Assembly: GCA_002753155.1 (NCBI GenBank)
Contig: PDZW01000003.1
Span: 1-64,000, forward strand
DNA length: 64,000 nucleotides
Source of the DNA: Alphaproteobacteria bacterium WMHbin7
GTDB taxonomy: Bacteria > Pseudomonadota > Alphaproteobacteria > Rhodospirillales > WMHbin7
Direction of reading: 5' to 3'
The notes below the pieces were generated by a model. That model saw only the letters and a list, made by a program, of their open reading frames with translations. It made no database searches and was not told where the DNA came from. Shown here piece after piece: positions 29,449-36,442 of the stretch (position 1 is its first letter; each line of letters starts with the position of its first letter). A program made the translations under genes and the position numbers.

Positions 29449-29525
29449 GCACCCGTAGCTCAACTGGATAGAGCACTAGACTACGAATCTGGGGGTTGGG
29501 AGTTCGAATCTCTCCGGGTGCGCCA
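29449..29525 (+). tRNA. tRNA-Arg(ACG)
   Basis: A complete 77-nt tRNA with encoded CCA. Acceptor GCACCCG (29449-29455) pairs with CGGGTGC (29515-29521). The D-arm has AGCTCAACTGGATAGAGC, the anticodon loop is CTACGAA and the T-loop TTCGAAT. The A34 wobble base would be edited to inosine and read CGU, CGC and CGA. Confidence 0.97.
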
Positions 29526-29533
29526 AAAAATTC

Positions 29534-29569
29534 AAGGGCTTAGATCAAAATCGGGCTAAGCCCTTTTTC
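29534..29569 (+). terminator. rho-independent terminator of tRNA-Arg
   Basis: A perfect 10-bp stem AAGGGCTTAG / CTAAGCCCTT (29534-29543 with 29556-29565) followed by a T-run, starting 9 bp after the tRNA. Confidence 0.92.
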
Positions 29570-29661
29570 TTTCGCCGAGGCCAGATCGCCTGATCGGGAA
29601 GGGAAGGGGGGAGAGCCCCTGGACATTCAACCCTTTGAAAGACAGGGCTTGCTTTGGCCCC

Positions 29662-29868
29662 TCAAGCCGGTGGCGCCGAGAGGGTGCCATCCCGTTTCTC
29701 TCTCTGGGTTATTGCCATAAATCCAGCGACACAGATGACCCCCAGCGTTACGACCACAGTCACCCCAACAACGGGCCCCACCATGACGGAAAGAGGCGCT
29801 CCGAACAGAGCGGCGACAGCGCTTTTGGAACTGAGAAGCTTGACCAAGGCCATTGACGAGCTTTCCAT
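29662..29868 (-). CDS. small hydrophobic membrane protein, unknown
   Basis: 68 residues. A hydrophobic stretch of about 35 residues (AALFGAPLSVMVGPVVGVTV onward) makes one long or two short membrane helices, followed by a charged tail TQREKRDG. A strong Shine-Dalgarno (GGAGG, four bases before the ATG at 29866-29868) argues that it is real. No family recognised; it stands alone after the tRNA on the opposite strand. Confidence 0.6.
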   Translation of the reverse strand: MESSSMALVKLLSSKSAVAALFGAPLSVMVGPVVGVTVVVTLGVICVAGFMAITQREKRDGTLSAPPA

Positions 29869-30106
29869 AGAACCTCCGCGGATGAATATGCTTAAAGTAA
29901 AAAATTCCAGCGTTTCTCTCTTTTAGGTAAGCGCTCTTACTGTTTTTTACAAGTGGCTCCCCGTCCCGAGCCTTAATAAACACGTACGTCTTGTTGTATG
30001 CTTGGTCTCAGGTGGTTGTCGAATCTGCTTTAATGAATTCTTAATAAATGAAACAATCAAGGGGATGGGCGTGAATTTTTTCCTTGTACCTATGGCGGAG
30101 GAACCG

Positions 30107-30541
30107 ATGAGTAAGCTGATTGACCAGATGATGACTCTTGTCGCTCCGAATGCGCCCCAATATCACAGGATGCCAAAGACTTCGCGAATCGTAAAAACGG
30201 TTTCCCCAGGGACGAAAAAGCAATCGGCGCCATCCGAACAGGTCCGCGGGTTGGAAGCCAGGGTCAGGAAATTGGAGGCCCAGCTTAAGTCGGCAAATAA
30301 TGAATTGAACAAGAAGAAGGCGACCTCTGCGGCGCTTTTGGCGCAGGCCAACGCCATGAAGAATGCCTTGAAGGTCGTTGATCCGGGTAGTCGGCTTTTG
30401 GGGCCAACCAAGGAAGTCTGGCGAAGCGGCGTTCTTGCAGGCCAACCCAAGACGGGGCTGCGGCTCATCTGGGAGCGGGCATTCGATGCGACGGCCAAGG
30501 AACTGGGGGTCGAGAATCCACTGTCGATGCGGCAGACTTGA
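30107..30541 (+). CDS. coiled-coil protein, unknown; first gene of orphan trio
   Basis: 144 residues, basic, no signal peptide. A predicted coiled coil spans about 43-80 (GLEARVRKLEAQLKSANNEL). The C-terminal part (about 95-144) ends in AFDATAKELGVENPLS. The ATG at 30107 has GGAGG five bases upstream; earlier ATGs in frame lack this. It starts a rightward group of three genes with gaps of 33 and about 100 bp. I do not recognise a family. Confidence 0.6.
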   Translation: MSKLIDQMMTLVAPNAPQYHRMPKTSRIVKTVSPGTKKQSAPSEQVRGLEARVRKLEAQLKSANNELNKKKATSAALLAQANAMKNALKVVDPGSRLLGPTKEVWRSGVLAGQPKTGLRLIWERAFDATAKELGVENPLSMRQT

Positions 30542-30574
30542 CCTGTGTTCAAGGCAAGCGTCAGGGACTAGATA

Positions 30575-30913
30575 ATGGCTGAAAAGTCCACAGAACAGCA
30601 TACCATCGCCGTGAAGGGTGATGACGGGATCGCATCGCCCAAAGTGCCGGATAGCGAACTGATGCAGGGACTTGTTCATGTCATGCTGCAAGAAGAGAAA
30701 CGAGAGCGCGAGGATCTGGTGCGCAATCTGTTCGAATCGATCGGCAGCCTCAAGGCCCGCAACAGCAAGCGGCCCTCTTCGGCGGAAACTTTCTCCAGCC
30801 AGAATCCATCCCGCGCATCGGTCTCCATCACACCGGCTCAACGGGCATTCAAACGCACAACGCTTGGGGATCAAGCCGCACTGCTAAGTGCGTTTCGACC
30901 TAAAGAAAGATAG
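30575..30913 (+). CDS. small hydrophilic protein, unknown; second gene of orphan trio
   Basis: 112 residues without a signal or membrane segment. A charged helix around residues 32-62 (HVMLQEEKREREDLVRNLF) could form a coiled coil with the first protein of the trio; the C-terminal half is Ser/Arg-rich and probably disordered. No family recognised. Confidence 0.55.
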   Translation: MAEKSTEQHTIAVKGDDGIASPKVPDSELMQGLVHVMLQEEKREREDLVRNLFESIGSLKARNSKRPSSAETFSSQNPSRASVSITPAQRAFKRTTLGDQAALLSAFRPKER

Positions 30914-31014
30914 CCCACTGTCGCGCCTTGATCCGCGCTTTGCGTCTGAAGAAGCATTATTGTGCTATCATCTTCGTCGATTGGCATCTTCCAGGAAATA
31001 AGGGGCATCGCGCG

Positions 31015-31857
31015 ATGACGCTCGTAAACAGGTCGGGTTGGGCAAAAACGCCCGAAGAGACCGTGGACTGGGAGCAGGTTTTTGAAGCGCCAGAAAACGG
31101 ATTGATCGCCCTTCTTTCCAAGGCGCATTCCCCGCAAGCGCTGCGCCAGATCACCATGTTGATTATCCAGCAACTCTACATTCGAAAGGACGACCCGGCA
31201 GAAGTCGCCCGTTTTACCAAGGAGTTGGGGACGCTTATTCCCGATGACTTGCCTGCGGTCAGCCTGCCCCACATCGTGGTGGCGGTTACAGACATTCTTC
31301 GGAACATCAAAAACTATCGCATCAACAAGGCGGCAGAGTTCGCACGGGAAAAAGCCAGAGAGCGGGTGCAAAAGAGCAGGGACGGCAAGGAAGTCGGCAA
31401 GTCGGACGCGGCAATCGCAAGGCGGCGCGAGGCCGAGCGGACAGCCGATCGCAAGCGCAAACGCTTTCGCATGTTTGCCGTGGCAGCATCGCTTGTGGCA
31501 CTCGCCGTTGTTGGGGGGATCGTCTACAAGATGGGCTCTGTTCCTGACCTTGAGAAAAAGCTGGAGCCCAACCGGCTGCTGGTTCAGCAAATGACCGAAG
31601 CGGCCAAGACCAGGAAGGCGACCGGCCCGAATGCCTTTGGCGGCAAAATTGGGGTTGATATCGTGTCGGATCGTGCTGCGGTGACCGTCGATGGCATTCC
31701 CCAGGATGCCTGTATGAGCGTTTCCTGGGTTCTTCTGAACCGTGGATTCATTGCGATCAACGGCAAGACCTCGAACAAATTCGGTCCAACCGTCATCAAG
31801 GAGCTTTGTTCGCTTTCTGGCGGTTTGACGACGATCACTTGGGTTTCCGTCCAGTGA
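31015..31857 (+). CDS. membrane protein with type IVb-pilin-like C-terminal domain; third gene of orphan trio
   Basis: 280 residues. Residues 1-110 are a helical cytoplasmic part of unknown type, 110-150 a very basic, charged segment, and about 153-171 the single membrane helix. The periplasmic part has the layout of PilS/type IVb pilin heads: NAFGGKIGVDIVSD, then V-DGIPQDACMSV, FIAINGK, and CSLSGGLTTITW, with two cysteines (233 and 265) placed for the usual disulfide. True pilins have the helix at the N-terminus, so this is a pilin-like head on a signalling or docking protein. The ATG at 31015 follows AGGGGC. Confidence 0.65.
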   Translation: MTLVNRSGWAKTPEETVDWEQVFEAPENGLIALLSKAHSPQALRQITMLIIQQLYIRKDDPAEVARFTKELGTLIPDDLPAVSLPHIVVAVTDILRNIKNYRINKAAEFAREKARERVQKSRDGKEVGKSDAAIARRREAERTADRKRKRFRMFAVAASLVALAVVGGIVYKMGSVPDLEKKLEPNRLLVQQMTEAAKTRKATGPNAFGGKIGVDIVSDRAAVTVDGIPQDACMSVSWVLLNRGFIAINGKTSNKFGPTVIKELCSLSGGLTTITWVSVQ

Positions 31858-32161
31858 CGGATCATTCCTGATTTTTTTGGCTCCTCGAGACGATAAATGG
31901 AAATAGGCAAACATGATTCCTCACCCTGAGGAGCCTGCGGCGCACAGGCGTCTCGAAGGGTGGGCAGGGGAAATACCGAGAATAGACAGATATTCATCCT
32001 TCGAGACGGGCCTTCGGCCCTCTTCAGGATGAGGTGAAATTCACCTCGGCCATCTGGCTCAGTTCCAAATCACACGTCGAAGAGCCATTTTTTTATACAT
32101 TCCAATCTGCCGCTCGGCTACTATCCCGGCCGGTAATGATCCATGGCGGAAGGATAGAGAC
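31858..32161. repeat. intergenic region with inverted pair of alphaproteobacterial repeats
   Basis: This 304-bp gap holds two inverted copies of one roughly 42-bp module: 31919-31962 (CCTCACCCTGAGGAG to GTCTCGAAGGGTG) and 31995-32034, its reverse complement with differences. This is a common palindromic intergenic repeat in Alphaproteobacteria. The rest contains the rubrerythrin promoter region. No gene is seen. Confidence 0.75.
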
Positions 32162-32662
32162 ATGAGCACGCAGGAAAATCTTAAGGAAGCCTTTGCCGGC
32201 GAAAGCCAGGCCAATCGCAAGTATTTGGCCTTTGGCGAGCAGGCCGCCCGCGACGGCAAGGCCATGGTGGCCAAGCTGTTTCGCGCCGTTGCCGCTGCCG
32301 AGACCTTGCATGCGCATGCCCATCTCAGGGCCATGGACGGGGTCAAGGATACGCTAGCCAATTTAAAGGAAGCCATGGCGGGCGAAGCGCATGAAGTCGC
32401 CCACATGTATCCGCCCATGCTGGCCACCGCCATCGCCGAAGGCCATAAGCGCGCCGAGCGCTCGATGTCTTATGCGTTGGAGGTCGAGAAGGTGCATTTT
32501 GGCTTGTTCCAGCAGGCTTTGTCCGCCGTTCAGGCCGGAGAGGATTTGGCGCCGGATGCCGTGCGCATTTGTCCGGTCTGCGGCCATACGGTGATCGGAG
32601 ATGCTCCGGATGAATGTCCGGTCTGCAAGGTCAAGGGCGATAAATTCACAGAGATCTCCTGA
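32162..32662 (+). CDS. rbr: rubrerythrin
   Basis: A 166-residue non-haem iron protein that reduces hydrogen peroxide under low oxygen. The four-helix di-iron domain (about 1-130) has ESQANRKYLAF, ETLHAHAHL, and EVAHMYPPM; the C-terminal rubredoxin-like centre has CPVCGHT and CPVCKVKGDKF (four cysteines). The ATG at 32162 follows GGAAGGA. A single gene that fits the oxygen-stress theme of the window. Confidence 0.95.
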   Translation: MSTQENLKEAFAGESQANRKYLAFGEQAARDGKAMVAKLFRAVAAAETLHAHAHLRAMDGVKDTLANLKEAMAGEAHEVAHMYPPMLATAIAEGHKRAERSMSYALEVEKVHFGLFQQALSAVQAGEDLAPDAVRICPVCGHTVIGDAPDECPVCKVKGDKFTEIS

Positions 32663-32756
32663 TCGGGTCGAGCCGGGCCTTCCTGCCGGATGAAAAAAAA
32701 CGCCAGCCAAATGTGACAGGATTGTTCCTGATTCGCCGCCAATTGACTGTTGTTTC

Positions 32757-34208
32757 TTGTGGAAAATCAGTCGGATTTTCTTCTCTCAGGCCCATGATTT
32801 GCTATACTCGCATTGGGTGAAGCCGCCCCATCTTGCGAGATGGAAGGCGACGGACGTGGCGGCAGAACAATCGCCACAGGGAGCGAGCGGCGTGGGGAAG
32901 AAGGGCGACGACAGTCTGACCGATATCGTGATCGATGCCTTGACGGGGATCGATCAAGGCATCAGCGTCTTCGACAAGGACATGCGCCTTCTGTTGTGGA
33001 ACCGGCGCATGCTTGAACTGCTCGATCTGCCCGACGATCTTCTCTATCGCGGCTATCCTCTGATCAATCTTCTCAGATTCAATGCATCCAGAGGCGAGTA
33101 CGGCGAGGGCGATGTGGAAACCCTGGTTGCCAACCGCATGCAGGCCATTCGTCATTTTGAGGCGCATCGCTATCAGCGCCGTCGCCCCAATGGCGTGGTG
33201 ATCGAGATTTCCGGTCGCCCGCTGCCCTCGGGCGGTTTTGTCAGCACCTTTACCGATGTTTCCGAGCGCAGCCTGCGCGAAGAGGAGCTTGAGCGCCGGG
33301 TCGCCGAACGCACGGCCAGGATCGAGGAGAATGAAAAGCGCTTCCGCGATTTTGCCGAAGCGGCGTCTGAATGGTTCTGGGAAATGGACGCCGCCTTGCG
33401 CTTTACCTTCATCTCGAAACGCTATTTCGATTTGAGCGGCGTTGAGCCCAAGGATGTGATCGGTCGCACCCGTCTGGAATTTGCCCGCCAGCGGCTGATG
33501 GGCGATGAAGCCGAGAAATGGGCGGCCCATATTTCCGATCTGGAAAGCCATCGGCCATTCCGCGAATTCGATTATGCCATTGCCAAGCCGGATGGCGGAA
33601 AGCTGCATATCCGCATCAGCGGCGTTCCTGTTTTCGACAGGGATTTGAATTTCGCGGGCTATCGCGGCAGCGGCACCGATGTGACGCGCGAGAAGACATT
33701 GGCCGAGGAAATCCTGCGCCAAGCCAAGACCGATCCCTTGACCGGCTTTGCCAATCGACGGGCCTTTTACGAGGTGGCATCGCTGGAGTCAGAGCGCGCC
33801 GCCAGATATTCGCGCCCCATGGTGGCGATGATGATCGATCTCGATCACTTCAAACGCATCAACGATAATTATGGGCATGATGGCGGCGATCTGGCTCTTA
33901 AACAATTTGCCGAAATATGCAAATCCCTGATCCGCAAAAACGATCTGATGGGGCGCATCGGCGGCGAGGAATTTGCGCTTTTGCTTCCGGAAACCGATAT
34001 GGACGGAGCACTTGAGGCGGCGCGCAAGCTGCGCCAGCAGATTTCTCAGGCCGTGGTTAAGCATGGCAATCTCAGATTCTTCTTTACCATCAGCATCGGC
34101 ATCGCCGAATTGAAGAGCGATCTCGACGATATGATGAAGCGGGCCGATCTGGCCCTCTACGAAGCCAAGGCCCAGGGGCGCAACCGCGAGTGTGTGGCGG
34201 CGTCGTGA
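32757..34208 (+). CDS. PAS-PAS-GGDEF diguanylate cyclase
   Basis: Up to 483 residues with no membrane segment. A PAS_7-like domain (about 55-170, IDQGISVFDKDMRLLLWNRR), a short coiled coil, a second PAS (about 195-310, SEWFWEMDAALRFTFISKR), and a GGDEF domain (about 320-480). The active site is GGEEF and the RKND motif five residues before it is the inhibitory I-site, so it should make c-di-GMP with feedback control. The start is unsure: the longest frame begins with TTG at 32757, and GTG at about 32817 or 32853 are alternatives. Confidence 0.88.
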   Translation: MWKISRIFFSQAHDLLYSHWVKPPHLARWKATDVAAEQSPQGASGVGKKGDDSLTDIVIDALTGIDQGISVFDKDMRLLLWNRRMLELLDLPDDLLYRGYPLINLLRFNASRGEYGEGDVETLVANRMQAIRHFEAHRYQRRRPNGVVIEISGRPLPSGGFVSTFTDVSERSLREEELERRVAERTARIEENEKRFRDFAEAASEWFWEMDAALRFTFISKRYFDLSGVEPKDVIGRTRLEFARQRLMGDEAEKWAAHISDLESHRPFREFDYAIAKPDGGKLHIRISGVPVFDRDLNFAGYRGSGTDVTREKTLAEEILRQAKTDPLTGFANRRAFYEVASLESERAARYSRPMVAMMIDLDHFKRINDNYGHDGGDLALKQFAEICKSLIRKNDLMGRIGGEEFALLLPETDMDGALEAARKLRQQISQAVVKHGNLRFFFTISIGIAELKSDLDDMMKRADLALYEAKAQGRNRECVAAS

Positions 34209-34232
34209 GCTTTGAGTCATGATCCTGGCATC

Positions 34233-34463
34233 ATGACGAAGCAGCCATCCTCCTCCCGAAGTCAGCCGGTTCTCTCAAGGCCCCTTAAGCCGGGAGTCCT
34301 GCCTCCGATTGGATTGACCCCAAAGGCTGAGGGCAATCCGACATCTCCGCCCGATAAGGCGGGGCTTGCATCAGATAAAGTCTCGGAAAACGGCGGCCCC
34401 CAAGGGGTCGAGCCGACGCGGTTCGGTGATTGGGAACGCAAAGGTCGTTGCAGCGATTTCTAG
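34233..34463 (+). CDS. DUF1674 / SdhAF4-like protein
   Basis: 76 residues. The first part is Pro/Ser-rich and probably disordered; the C-terminus GGPQGVEPTRFGDWERKGRC then SDF is the signature of the DUF1674 (SDHAF4) family, which helps assemble flavinylated succinate dehydrogenase subunit A. The ATG at 34233 is preferred to a TTG at 34212; neither has a good Shine-Dalgarno. The sdh genes are not in the window. Confidence 0.82.
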   Translation: MTKQPSSSRSQPVLSRPLKPGVLPPIGLTPKAEGNPTSPPDKAGLASDKVSENGGPQGVEPTRFGDWERKGRCSDF

Positions 34464-34516
34464 CTGCGCGTATTGCATAAATTCCTCAAATGTTCTATTT
34501 ATAGCCCATGCCGCCC

Positions 34517-34547
34517 TTGACGGCAGTGCAAAAGCACGTTATATAAT
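34517..34547 (+). promoter_or_regulatory. sigma-70-like promoter of the nuclease gene
   Basis: TTGACG at 34517-34522 and TATAAT at 34542-34547 (spacer 19), or TTATAT at 34539-34544 (spacer 16). The region is AT-rich. Transcription would start around 34553, at or almost at the ATG, so the mRNA may lack a leader. Confidence 0.55.
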
Positions 34548-34552
34548 ATGTC

Positions 34553-35011
34553 ATGATTATGCATATCAAACTACGAGTAGCTGTGCCCCTGGTCTTGATT
34601 GGAGCAATTTTCAACTCGGCTGTGTGGGCGGCTGAACGTCTGGAAGGCCCCATTCCCGCCCAGGTGGTTCGCGTGGTCGATGGCGACACGCTGATGGTGC
34701 GCGCCCATATCTGGCTGGGTCAGGAGGTTGAAACCCTGGTCCGCCTTGAGGGGACGGATACGCCCGAGTTGAAGGCCCGCTGCGAGCAGGAGCGCGAGAA
34801 AGCCCTGGCGGCACGCGACTTCCTGGTGGCCCGCGTTGATGGAAAGCAGGTTCAATTGCACGATATTCTGACCGACAAATATGGCGGCAGGGTCAGGGCC
34901 CAGGTGCTGGATGAATCGGGAGCCGATCTATCGGTGGAATTGATCAAGCAGGGTCTGGCCCGGCGCTATGACGGCGGCCAGCGTCAATCCTGGTGTACGG
35001 GGGCGGAATAG
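34553..35011 (+). CDS. secreted thermonuclease-family (SNase-like) nuclease
   Basis: 152 residues with a signal peptide (cleavage near AVWAAE). The SNase fold motifs VVRVVDGDTLMV, RLEGTDTPEL and GLARRYDGG are present, including the aspartates and arginine of the calcium-dependent active site. Ca-dependent attack on DNA or RNA in the periplasm or outside is likely. Start ATG 34553 or 34559. Its 3' end overlaps the convergent glycosyltransferase gene by 28 bp. Confidence 0.85.
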   Translation: MIMHIKLRVAVPLVLIGAIFNSAVWAAERLEGPIPAQVVRVVDGDTLMVRAHIWLGQEVETLVRLEGTDTPELKARCEQEREKALAARDFLVARVDGKQVQLHDILTDKYGGRVRAQVLDESGADLSVELIKQGLARRYDGGQRQSWCTGAE

Positions 35012-36228
35012 CGAAGCAGAGTTTGGCCTCCTTGCGCCTGCCTTGTCGCTTCCGTTTCCTTGTCGAGCAGAAGAAGGGCGGGCTCCGTGGGCCAGCTTGT
35101 CAAAGGCATCGGCCGAAAGCGCACCAGATCGGCCGCGTCAGAGGCAATTTCAGCAGGAAGCGAGGGGTCGATATAAAGGGGCAGGGGGAAGAGCGTTTTG
35201 CGCTGAACTTCCTGAAGCTGCTCGTACATGGCGGCTCGCGTCATCAGATCGGGTTGGCTTGCGGGCAAAACGGCCATGCTGGAAAATATTTTCGGATCGA
35301 TCCCTTGCATGACGAAATCTTGCACCTGACGGCGGCGTGTCTCGGGCGCGTGGCGGGCCAGATATTCCTTCTGTCCGGCCCTTGCAAGATCAAGGGCGTC
35401 GAGTGGGCGCGCCAGCAGGAGTTTCAGCAACGCCAGCAAATCATCGGCGTCATCGTAAAATGCTAGGTGGCGTCCATCCTGGAAGAGCTGCTCAAGCCCG
35501 GCCTGGGGCGAAAGCCGGTCGGTGACCAGGCAGCCGCCCGCCGCCAGAACTTCGAAGACGCGCATATTGATGTCGCCATTGAGGCTGCAATTAAAGACGA
35601 TCTGCGCCTCGCCATAAAGCCTGGCGGCGTCCTCTGGCTCGGCCTGTCCTTCGATCAGGGGAAGCCCTGCCTGCTTGATGGCATCAAGAAGATAGCGCCG
35701 CCTGGGGTGGAAATCTCCGGCTTGACCCAGAAACAGCACGGTCGGCTCGCGCACCGCTTTGAAAGGCTGGGTATGACCCGCCACGTTGAAATTGGGAATG
35801 AGGGCGACCGGGCATCGCGCCAATTCCTCGAACCAATGAGCGAAATGAGCCCCGTGGGTGACGATGACGCCGTCGAAATTTTCCTGGGCCACATAGCGCA
35901 GCATCGAGGTAAGCGGTTTCGTGCCGTGATGCAGGTCGGCGATCACCAGGAATTTGCGCCCCGGTAACCGCGCAAGCCCGATCGGCCTGGCACAACGATA
36001 GCTGGAAGCCTGGATGAAGATGAGATCGGGTGTAAATCCATCCGGCAGGCAGGCAAGCAGACTTTCTGGCGTGATGTTGCCCGCCTCGATCCGGCGGCGG
36101 ATGCGTCCATCCGCCGTGGTTCCATCTGGCATGTTGGGGCCCATCTCCACCTGATCGGCGCCAAGGCGCAAAGGCGGCATGTAGCTGGGGCTGCCATTGG
36201 TGATGTAAAGGACGCTGGGTTCGTTCAT
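34984..36228 (-). CDS. CgeB-like glycosyltransferase
   Basis: 414 residues, a GT-B type glycosyltransferase of the Glyco_trans_1_2/CgeB sort. N-terminal VLYITNGSPSYMPPL, then a nucleotide-sugar half with PTVLFLGQAGDFHPRRRYLL, and the C-terminal signature MRVFEVLAAGGCLVTDRLSP with DGRHLAFYDDADDLLALL. The sugar donor and acceptor cannot be told; exopolysaccharide or flagellin glycosylation are common roles. Single gene, downstream of a bidirectional terminator. Confidence 0.82.
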   Translation of the reverse strand: MNEPSVLYITNGSPSYMPPLRLGADQVEMGPNMPDGTTADGRIRRRIEAGNITPESLLACLPDGFTPDLIFIQASSYRCARPIGLARLPGRKFLVIADLHHGTKPLTSMLRYVAQENFDGVIVTHGAHFAHWFEELARCPVALIPNFNVAGHTQPFKAVREPTVLFLGQAGDFHPRRRYLLDAIKQAGLPLIEGQAEPEDAARLYGEAQIVFNCSLNGDINMRVFEVLAAGGCLVTDRLSPQAGLEQLFQDGRHLAFYDDADDLLALLKLLLARPLDALDLARAGQKEYLARHAPETRRRQVQDFVMQGIDPKIFSSMAVLPASQPDLMTRAAMYEQLQEVQRKTLFPLPLYIDPSLPAEIASDAADLVRFRPMPLTSWPTEPALLLLDKETEATRQAQGGQTLLRYSAPVHQD

Positions 36229-36245
36229 GTTCCCAGCATAACCAA

Positions 36246-36274
36246 AAACGGCGCAGGGATCACCCGCGCCGTTT
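36246..36274. terminator. bidirectional terminator between acs and the glycosyltransferase gene
   Basis: A perfect 9-bp stem AAACGGCGC / GCGCCGTTT (36246-36254 with 36266-36274). On the minus strand it ends in TTTTTGG, on the plus in TTTCTTCTT. It would stop acs transcripts after the repeat. Confidence 0.75.
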
Positions 36275-36300
36275 CTTCTTCATACGCTTTCGCTCTTATG

Positions 36301-36442
36301 CCGGCATGCAGAAAGAATTACGCATGCCGGTCGCGGGCAAGGCCCGCGCGCGAGCCTCCCGGCGAGCGGGAGCCAAGGGCGCACAGCGCCCGCCCGGCGC
36401 TTGAGGCCTGCATTAATCGGTCACGATTAATGCAAACGGGTA
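36301..36442 (-). repeat. dispersed 3'-UTR repeat, copy 2
   Basis: Read on the minus strand, the block starts after the acs stop (36443): 8 nt, then an 11-bp hairpin (36409-36419 with 36424-36434), then the GC-rich core shared with 11268-11345, and finally a 9-bp hairpin (36301-36309 with 36322-36330) not seen in copy 1. Within the first hairpin a C-G pair of copy 1 is an A-T pair here, so the structure is kept while the sequence changes. Confidence 0.78.

Follow-up and report, generated by a model that had tools for sequence, protein, structure and literature searches.

The window analyzed in this work, that is, the whole stretch of 64,000 nucleotides from Alphaproteobacteria bacterium WMHbin7 (contig PDZW01000003.1), carries three consecutive open reading frames on the + strand, at the place where the initial annotation had located them, the third frame ending at 31857 (Table 1). 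Since the antisense strand of 30107-31857 also has long open reading frames, it must be pointed out that the + strand is established for genes 2 and 3 by their protein homology. The start of gene 3 was assigned to the ATG at 31015, which gives a protein of 280 residues, because of the alignment with its homologues; in the extended open reading frame, which is 29 codons longer, the membrane helix of Table 1 is numbered 182-200.

Table 1. Position and properties of the genes, domains, and flanking tRNA discussed in the text.
Feature	Position	Strand	Basis
tRNA-Arg (ACG), edge of the variable block with genes 1-3	29449..29525	+	ARAGORN (Rfam: 29449-29522)
Neighbouring gene 1, for a coiled-coil-like protein of 144 aa	30107..30541	+	Open reading frame; unmatched in the 59 other genomes
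Neighbouring gene 2, for a small charged protein of 112 aa	30575..30913	+	Relatives in own genus only (60 genomes), at other loci
Gene 3, putative single-pass membrane protein, 280 aa	31015..31857	+	Homologues; start by alignment
Gene 3 N-domain, residues 8-118, predicted cytoplasmic and helical, DWExVFExP...LLRxIKxxRIxKA	31036..31368	+	16-row alignment and model
Gene 3 membrane helix, residues 153-171, after a K/R-rich linker	31471..31527	+	Hydropathy and K/R charge
Gene 3 predicted periplasmic type IVb-pilin-like head, residues 184-280, with Cys233 and Cys265	31564..31854	+	Profile and model

The DNA homology with the congeners G001, G002, and G003 extends up to position 29525, i.e., the end of the tRNA-Arg gene, and then ceases (the G001 contig ends 49 bases past this break), while the DNA match with G004, a member of the same family, extends to 29537. 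Past the tRNA-Arg, other genes are found in G002, and the N-domain profile found no match in G001 and G003 (99-100% complete), in G002 (81%), or in G004 (98%). Since the homology ends at the tRNA and no copy of the N-domain was found in the congeners, we consider genes 1-3 as part of a variable block beside the tRNA, a scenario that fits both acquisition and loss. In G003 (L229, 514-4245), two genes beside the same tRNA-Arg were recognized by eye, one relaxase-like and the other coding for a serine recombinase, which suggests an integration hot spot at this tRNA. The existence of an integration island in the window was also considered and set aside: the tRNA end is without a good second copy (the best one spans 40 bases, is 75% identical, and lies on the other strand), and no integrase was recognized by eye in 29526-36442. 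Because of the missing second tRNA end and of the missing integrase, our claim is limited to a variable block beside the tRNA. Two repeated sequences were also observed in this region. The first one, intergenic and about 210 bases long, lies just 3' of gene 3 (31879-32087) and recurs in the congener G002 in at least 32 copies, complete or partial, with an identity of at most 82%; the second one is short (36308-36442) and has numerous copies in G001 and G003.

According to the initial annotation, the three genes represented an operon and were expected to be conserved together. Their common strand and their spacing (a gap of 33 bases after gene 1 and one of 101 bases after gene 2) might speak for such an arrangement. 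A simple scan retrieved no sigma-70-like promoter; all the terminator-like sites were on the - strand, their count not exceeding that of shuffled sequences. The comparative analysis, however, does not support the idea of a conserved trio. Gene 1 had no match in any of the 59 other genomes, and gene 2 was matched in two of them, both from the same genus, with an additional paralogue in its own genome; the gene 2 paralogues are solitary, with neither gene 1 nor gene 3 adjoining them. Those of two congeners (L226 and L227) lie near genes that, by eye, are hemerythrin-like. In addition, each of the seven full-length gene 3 homologues appears by eye in different gene surroundings, and a Pfam scan of the 52 neighbours of 10 genes sharing the gene 3 architecture (hereafter type A, i.e., N-domain, helix, and head) revealed no family present in more than three members. 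All the Pfam matches of genes 1 and 2 fell below the curated cut-offs (the best one for gene 1 being COG6_N, a coiled-coil family, E 0.0014), and the PHROGs collection gave nothing under E 0.04 for genes 1-3. On the basis of these sequence comparisons, the three genes are not conserved together, and the finding proper concerns gene 3 alone.

Full-length homologues of gene 3 (matched from residue 14 or before to residue 276 or beyond) are present in 7 of the 59 other genomes; an eighth homologue, that of G004, covers residues 30-277 with 24% identity. Altogether, the gene 3 protein was matched in 27 of the 60 genomes, its own included, the matches beyond the full-length ones concerning the N-domain or the head alone. 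A profile scan of genome contigs revealed full-length homologues also in named Rhodospirillales MAGs: the profile A5 retrieved 34 loci, compared with none when the single gene 3 protein was used as query. The seven full-length homologues, the one of G004, and the single significant match in the PDB (see below) lead us to regard the features of gene 3 as being above chance. The anatomy of the protein had been described correctly for the most part: hydropathy confirmed the helix at about 153-171, the two cysteines (Cys233 and Cys265) are 32 residues apart, and the motifs IPQDAC, AINGK, and CS...TITW are present, the only discrepancy being the one reported as GG-x-I-V, which actually reads GGKIGV. 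Hence, of what had originally been observed, the open reading frames and the anatomy of gene 3 were borne out and the three-gene operon was left unconfirmed.

The initial annotation had also recognized the layout of a type IVb pilin head in the C-terminal part of the protein, and both the sequence profiles and the predicted structure are in agreement with this reading. When the whole gene 3 protein was used, the Pfam family PilS reached just 14.1 bits against a cut-off of 22 (E 0.048); when the head segments of 12 proteins were searched individually, the same family matched 8 of them at E ≤1 (best 6.8e-4, window segment 4.8e-3), and no other Pfam family matched more than one. The head profile, compared with 177,635 distinct PDB sequences, gave a sole significant match, which was Salmonella PilS (E 1.3e-4, the next one being at 0.021), and the corresponding alignment covers the GG, VPQ-AC, and NG motifs and the second cysteine. 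Both cysteine columns are invariant in all 12 heads. Among 289 genomes of the class, the same profile matched four. Two of these belong to the order, one being the own genome; in the two that do not, the matched genes begin as prepilins do (GRSMIEM and GRTLLEM). The AlphaFold model of the gene 3 protein, built on 30 sequences, has a mean pLDDT of 88.8 and a pTM of 0.50, a value that would be expected if the domains lacked a fixed relative placement; from residue 191 to residue 280 the pLDDT of each ten-residue block is between 92 and 97. The modelled head superimposes on PilS (3fhu) with a Z of 10.0 and an rmsd of 2.7 over 95 aligned residues (VIA-align), on CofA and on TcpA with a Z of 9.0 each, and on the PilS NMR model 1q5f with a Z of 5.6. 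The response of Foldseek to the same model was weaker, its best PDB match being the TcpA filament at E 4.5e-3, with none at 0.001. The fold predicted for residues 184-280 is thus that of PilS, CofA, and TcpA, i.e., that of a type IVb pilin head.

The gene 3 protein is, in spite of its head, unlikely to be a pilus subunit, as had also been proposed. Its membrane helix is preceded by 152 residues, and no G-x4-E prepilin motif is found just before it. Of 55 head proteins bearing a helix, three have such a motif in the 12 residues that precede it, and these are exactly the three true prepilins. In the model, moreover, there is a break between the helix spanning residues 131-172 and that spanning residues 185-199, with residues 173-180 having a pLDDT lower than 50. 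The missing motif suggests that the protein does not undergo prepilin processing, and the sequence as a whole argues against its processing and assembly as a pilin. A Pfam PilS search gave no match in the own genome and none in 14 control genomes either, so it shows no absence of pilins. A relative from the class, G484, has type IVb prepilin genes arranged in tandem arrays (L184, 1216-3180, and L187, 404-1857).

The cytoplasmic moiety appears to be of a different nature. When 16 N-domains were compared with Pfam at E ≤1, each family that responded did so to a single one of them (best E 0.035), and these weak matches include no winged-helix family; in the model, the helices of the domain lie between residues 19 and 123, and the list of similar folds embeds only helical bundles, with Z values up to 7.0. 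Some candidates were examined and rejected: a hemerythrin-like domain (Z 6.5), since none of the columns that are invariant, or almost so, across the 16 rows is a His; a Bpa-like bundle (Z 6.2), which was set aside; and an anti-sigma family of NCBIfam, which matched the gene 3 protein at E 1.6e-4 but scored 21.7 bits where the cut-off is 100, the match covering residues 111-226, i.e., the linker, the helix, and the first part of the head. Of 297 genomes sampled from the order, 81 had the N-domain according to a profile search; in a draw of 337 genomes of the class it was found in the own genome and in two others, both outside the order. The tree of the N-domains is poorly resolved, and no starred branch holds the row of the window protein, whose nearest rows are mostly type A. 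The architectures do cluster on this tree (18 changes, the mean of the shuffles being 49, and none of 200 shuffles as low). As far as sequence comparison goes, we consider that the N-domain is a new, unnamed helical module with exchangeable partners.

This exchangeability emerged from a set of 124 proteins possessing the N-domain or the head, from which copies with identical cores had been removed and which consists mostly of best matches, so that it does not represent a census. The N-domain is present in 84 of them, four of which reach the end of the collected sequence: it is followed by the helix and the head in 16 (type A, window protein included), by the helix and a type C domain in 24, by the helix and a type B domain in nine, and by a soluble type D domain in 21, while in the other 14 no partner was recognized; since the profiles of types B, C, and D derive from the very members counted, these labels are descriptive and do not provide an independent test. 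The other 40 proteins have a head and no N-domain match; besides the three true pilins, they include the four receiver proteins described below, short forms, such as a paralogue encoded by the own genome, and forms of the family f22, whose N-domain has possibly diverged. One f22 protein, L096, is recognized by the N-domain profile and is therefore included in the 16 type A members. A single genome, G011, harbors types A, C, and D together with a short head protein. An excess of K and R residues precedes the helix in all 16 proteins joining N-domain and head, in 22 of 24 with type C, and in all nine with type B; this charge distribution points to a topology with the N-terminus inside and the C-terminus outside.

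Type C deserves particular attention. For one member from Magnetovibrio blakemorei (L132), a model of the periplasmic part was built on 15 sequences (pLDDT 91.5, pTM 0.84), and this model resembles the FliL of Helicobacter pylori (Z 10.5) and that of Vibrio (6ahq, Z 10.3), followed by the SPFH domains of prohibitin and stomatin with Z values up to 7.3; in Foldseek, FliL was found at E 2.4e-3, with none at 0.001. The FliL likeness of type C is a structural one, since its sequence has no FliL match in Pfam or in the PDB. The model and the sequences together suggest that the same cytoplasmic domain and helix can be combined with a head of the pilin kind in some proteins and with a FliL-like domain in others. 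Type C members are present in M. blakemorei MV-1, a cultured strain. In two loci (L039, 8880-11603, and L040, 8294-10948), the type C genes adjoin, by eye, a stomatin and NfeD gene pair. As for the other partners, type D consists of the N-domain and a soluble domain of about 300 aa of no recognized family (21 proteins, including L126, L156-L158, and L161-L179) having weak Pfam matches only, and the PDB holds no significant sequence match for either type B (best E 0.75) or type D (best E 0.043). An apparent association of the N-domain with a cadherin-like repeat (L156, 9248-9886) is probably a contig-end or assembly artefact, L161 having an identical N-domain that leads to type D.

Receiver domains were found both in head-bearing proteins and in proteins joining the N-domain and type C. 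Four proteins of the family f22 (L141, 3065-4618; L142, 566-2116; L143, 2828-4357; L146, 2842-4524) are composed of a receiver, an HD_5 domain, a helix, and a pilin-like head, and can thus be read as response regulators whose periplasmic domain is of the pilin type; from its sequence, the HD_5 part looks catalytically degenerate. Two proteins from one genus (L165, 4439-5893, and L168, 4280-5746) possess a receiver, the N-domain, the helix, and type C. No receiver domain occurs in any collected type A member.

A remaining question concerns the role of such a protein. On the basis of its anatomy, its fold, its modularity, and the receiver fusions of its relatives, all of which are provided by sequence or by prediction, we propose that gene 3 codes for a modular single-pass signalling or docking protein, with a pilin-fold head outside and the N-domain as a connector inside, an interpretation to which we attribute even chances; ligand binding and signalling are what we infer from it. 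The product would be a bitopic protein of the inner membrane, formed by the N-domain, a basic linker, one helix, and a periplasmic head. The head would most likely bind a periplasmic partner, be it a protein, a polymer, or a part of the envelope, and the N-domain would provide the link, shared by the family, with a regulatory partner in the cytoplasm, either relaying a signal or being controlled by the state of the cytoplasm; other members would expose, on the same N-domain, a FliL-like or a third domain. The reason for assigning binding to the head and the inward connection to the N-domain is that a constant inner part with a variable outer one is the layout of receptors, to which the receiver fusions are added. 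The low confidence of the stretch between helix and head (residues 173-180) counts against signalling in that it disfavours a rigid transmission. No conserved gene partner was recognized near the type A genes, either by eye at seven loci or among the 25 families listed of the 93 matched, and for this reason we name no signalling partner. The former idea of a pilin-like sensor or docking system is possible for gene 3 alone, as a member of a larger family that swaps modules, and not for the trio; of the overall interpretation from which it came, the pilin head and the exclusion of a pilin held, and the co-conservation of the three genes did not.

An unlikely, more specific possibility is that the head docks to pilins or to the base of a Tad/type IV pilus, so that the protein reports the state of the pilus to the cytoplasm. 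The predicted fold of the head is in agreement with this idea, as is the finding that, of 13 genomes examined, 12 have both a prepilin peptidase (PF01478) and a T2SSF domain (PF00482), the own genome being one of them. The exception, however, is a genome (G020, 94% complete) possessing a type A protein, located at a contig end and with its start missing, and having no match to PF01478 or PF00482, for which an assembly gap is a possible explanation. Moreover, no pilus genes were recognized by eye around seven type A genes, and no pilus or secretion-assembly family appears among the 25 families listed of the 93 matched by the type A neighbours (52 genes, 10 loci).

It is rather improbable, in our opinion, that the protein works in the opposite direction, i.e., as an effector whose cytoplasmic half is the input and whose head is the output, binding or releasing a target in the envelope. 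Receiver domains are cytoplasmic inputs, and their fusion on the cytoplasmic side of four head-bearing and two FliL-like members would fit such a mechanism, which is weakened by the lack of a receiver in the collected type A members. A comparably low probability is assigned to a passive envelope scaffold, in which the head would be a generic binder and the N-domain would anchor or localize it with no signal crossing the membrane. The probably flexible stretch between helix and head, the lack of a recognized catalytic domain, and that of a conserved neighbour among the 25 families listed of 93 might be explained in this way, but the fusions of head and N-domain with phospho-receivers would be left unexplained. 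Lastly, a single functional system made up of genes 1, 2, and 3, to which their strand and spacing might point, is very improbable given the absence of co-conservation, the solitary gene 2 paralogues, and the different neighbours of the type A homologues.

If the signalling or docking role of the gene 3 protein is extended to its relatives, we can speculate that they constitute an undescribed family of membrane transducers in one alphaproteobacterial order, in which a shared cytoplasmic domain is combined with periplasmic parts of surface machines (the type IVb pilin head or the FliL motor-ring domain); we regard this extension as an unlikely one. If it were true, the members of the family might link the cytoplasm with the state of pili, of flagella, or of surface contact; the pilin fold, known as that of a filament subunit, would be used as a sensor domain outside any filament. 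In any case, the testable question is raised of whether parts of surface machines have been reused as receptor domains, and both the head and the cytoplasmic domain are small and suited to expression and assay.

Other searches did not connect gene 3 with mobile elements. No match at E 0.01 was found in a plasmid collection (tblastn with the gene 3 protein), and a scan of viral contigs with the profile A5 retrieved no relative. A defence system was considered and rejected, PADLOC giving no match at E 0.01 for seven proteins, including those of genes 1-3. The parts of the gene 3 protein are of known kinds, i.e., a pilin fold and a modular single-pass membrane protein; their combination is apparently undescribed, in that no description of a pilin head on a cytoplasmic domain was found in the open-access literature, which is weak evidence of absence.

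The general layout is reminiscent of one-component regulators of the ToxR/TcpP/CadC kind, which have a cytoplasmic domain, one helix, and a variable periplasmic domain. The gene 3 family shares this layout, but its N-domain matched no Pfam DNA-binding domain of that kind. The head has the same predicted fold as PilS of Salmonella Typhi (3fhu, 1q5f), CofA, and TcpA; unlike these pilins, the gene 3 protein is without a prepilin motif, has an internal helix placed after 152 residues and separated from the head helix by a break of low confidence, and belongs to an architecture near whose genes no pilus genes were recognized by eye or among the 25 of 93 families listed. The likeness to the periplasmic domain of FliL (7sgn, 6ahq), whose structure has been reported (PMC6426602), belongs to the type C relatives (Z 10.5 for the L132 model), which match no Pfam FliL family, whereas the gene 3 protein itself carries the pilin head. 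PilB of Streptococcus sanguinis is a bimodular pilin, i.e., a true filament pilin with a second module, and the available excerpt of its description mentions nothing resembling the cytoplasmic domain of gene 3 (PMC8179133). In CpaL of Caulobacter, according to the excerpt of the corresponding paper, a pilin-like module is fused to a vWA domain in a predicted minor pilin of the pilus tip, for which a role in surface sensing has been proposed (PMC12607857). CpaL and the gene 3 protein are thus both alphaproteobacterial proteins with a pilin-like module; as far as that excerpt allows the comparison, what distinguishes gene 3 is a predicted pilin fold lying distal to an internal helix and a cytoplasmic domain.
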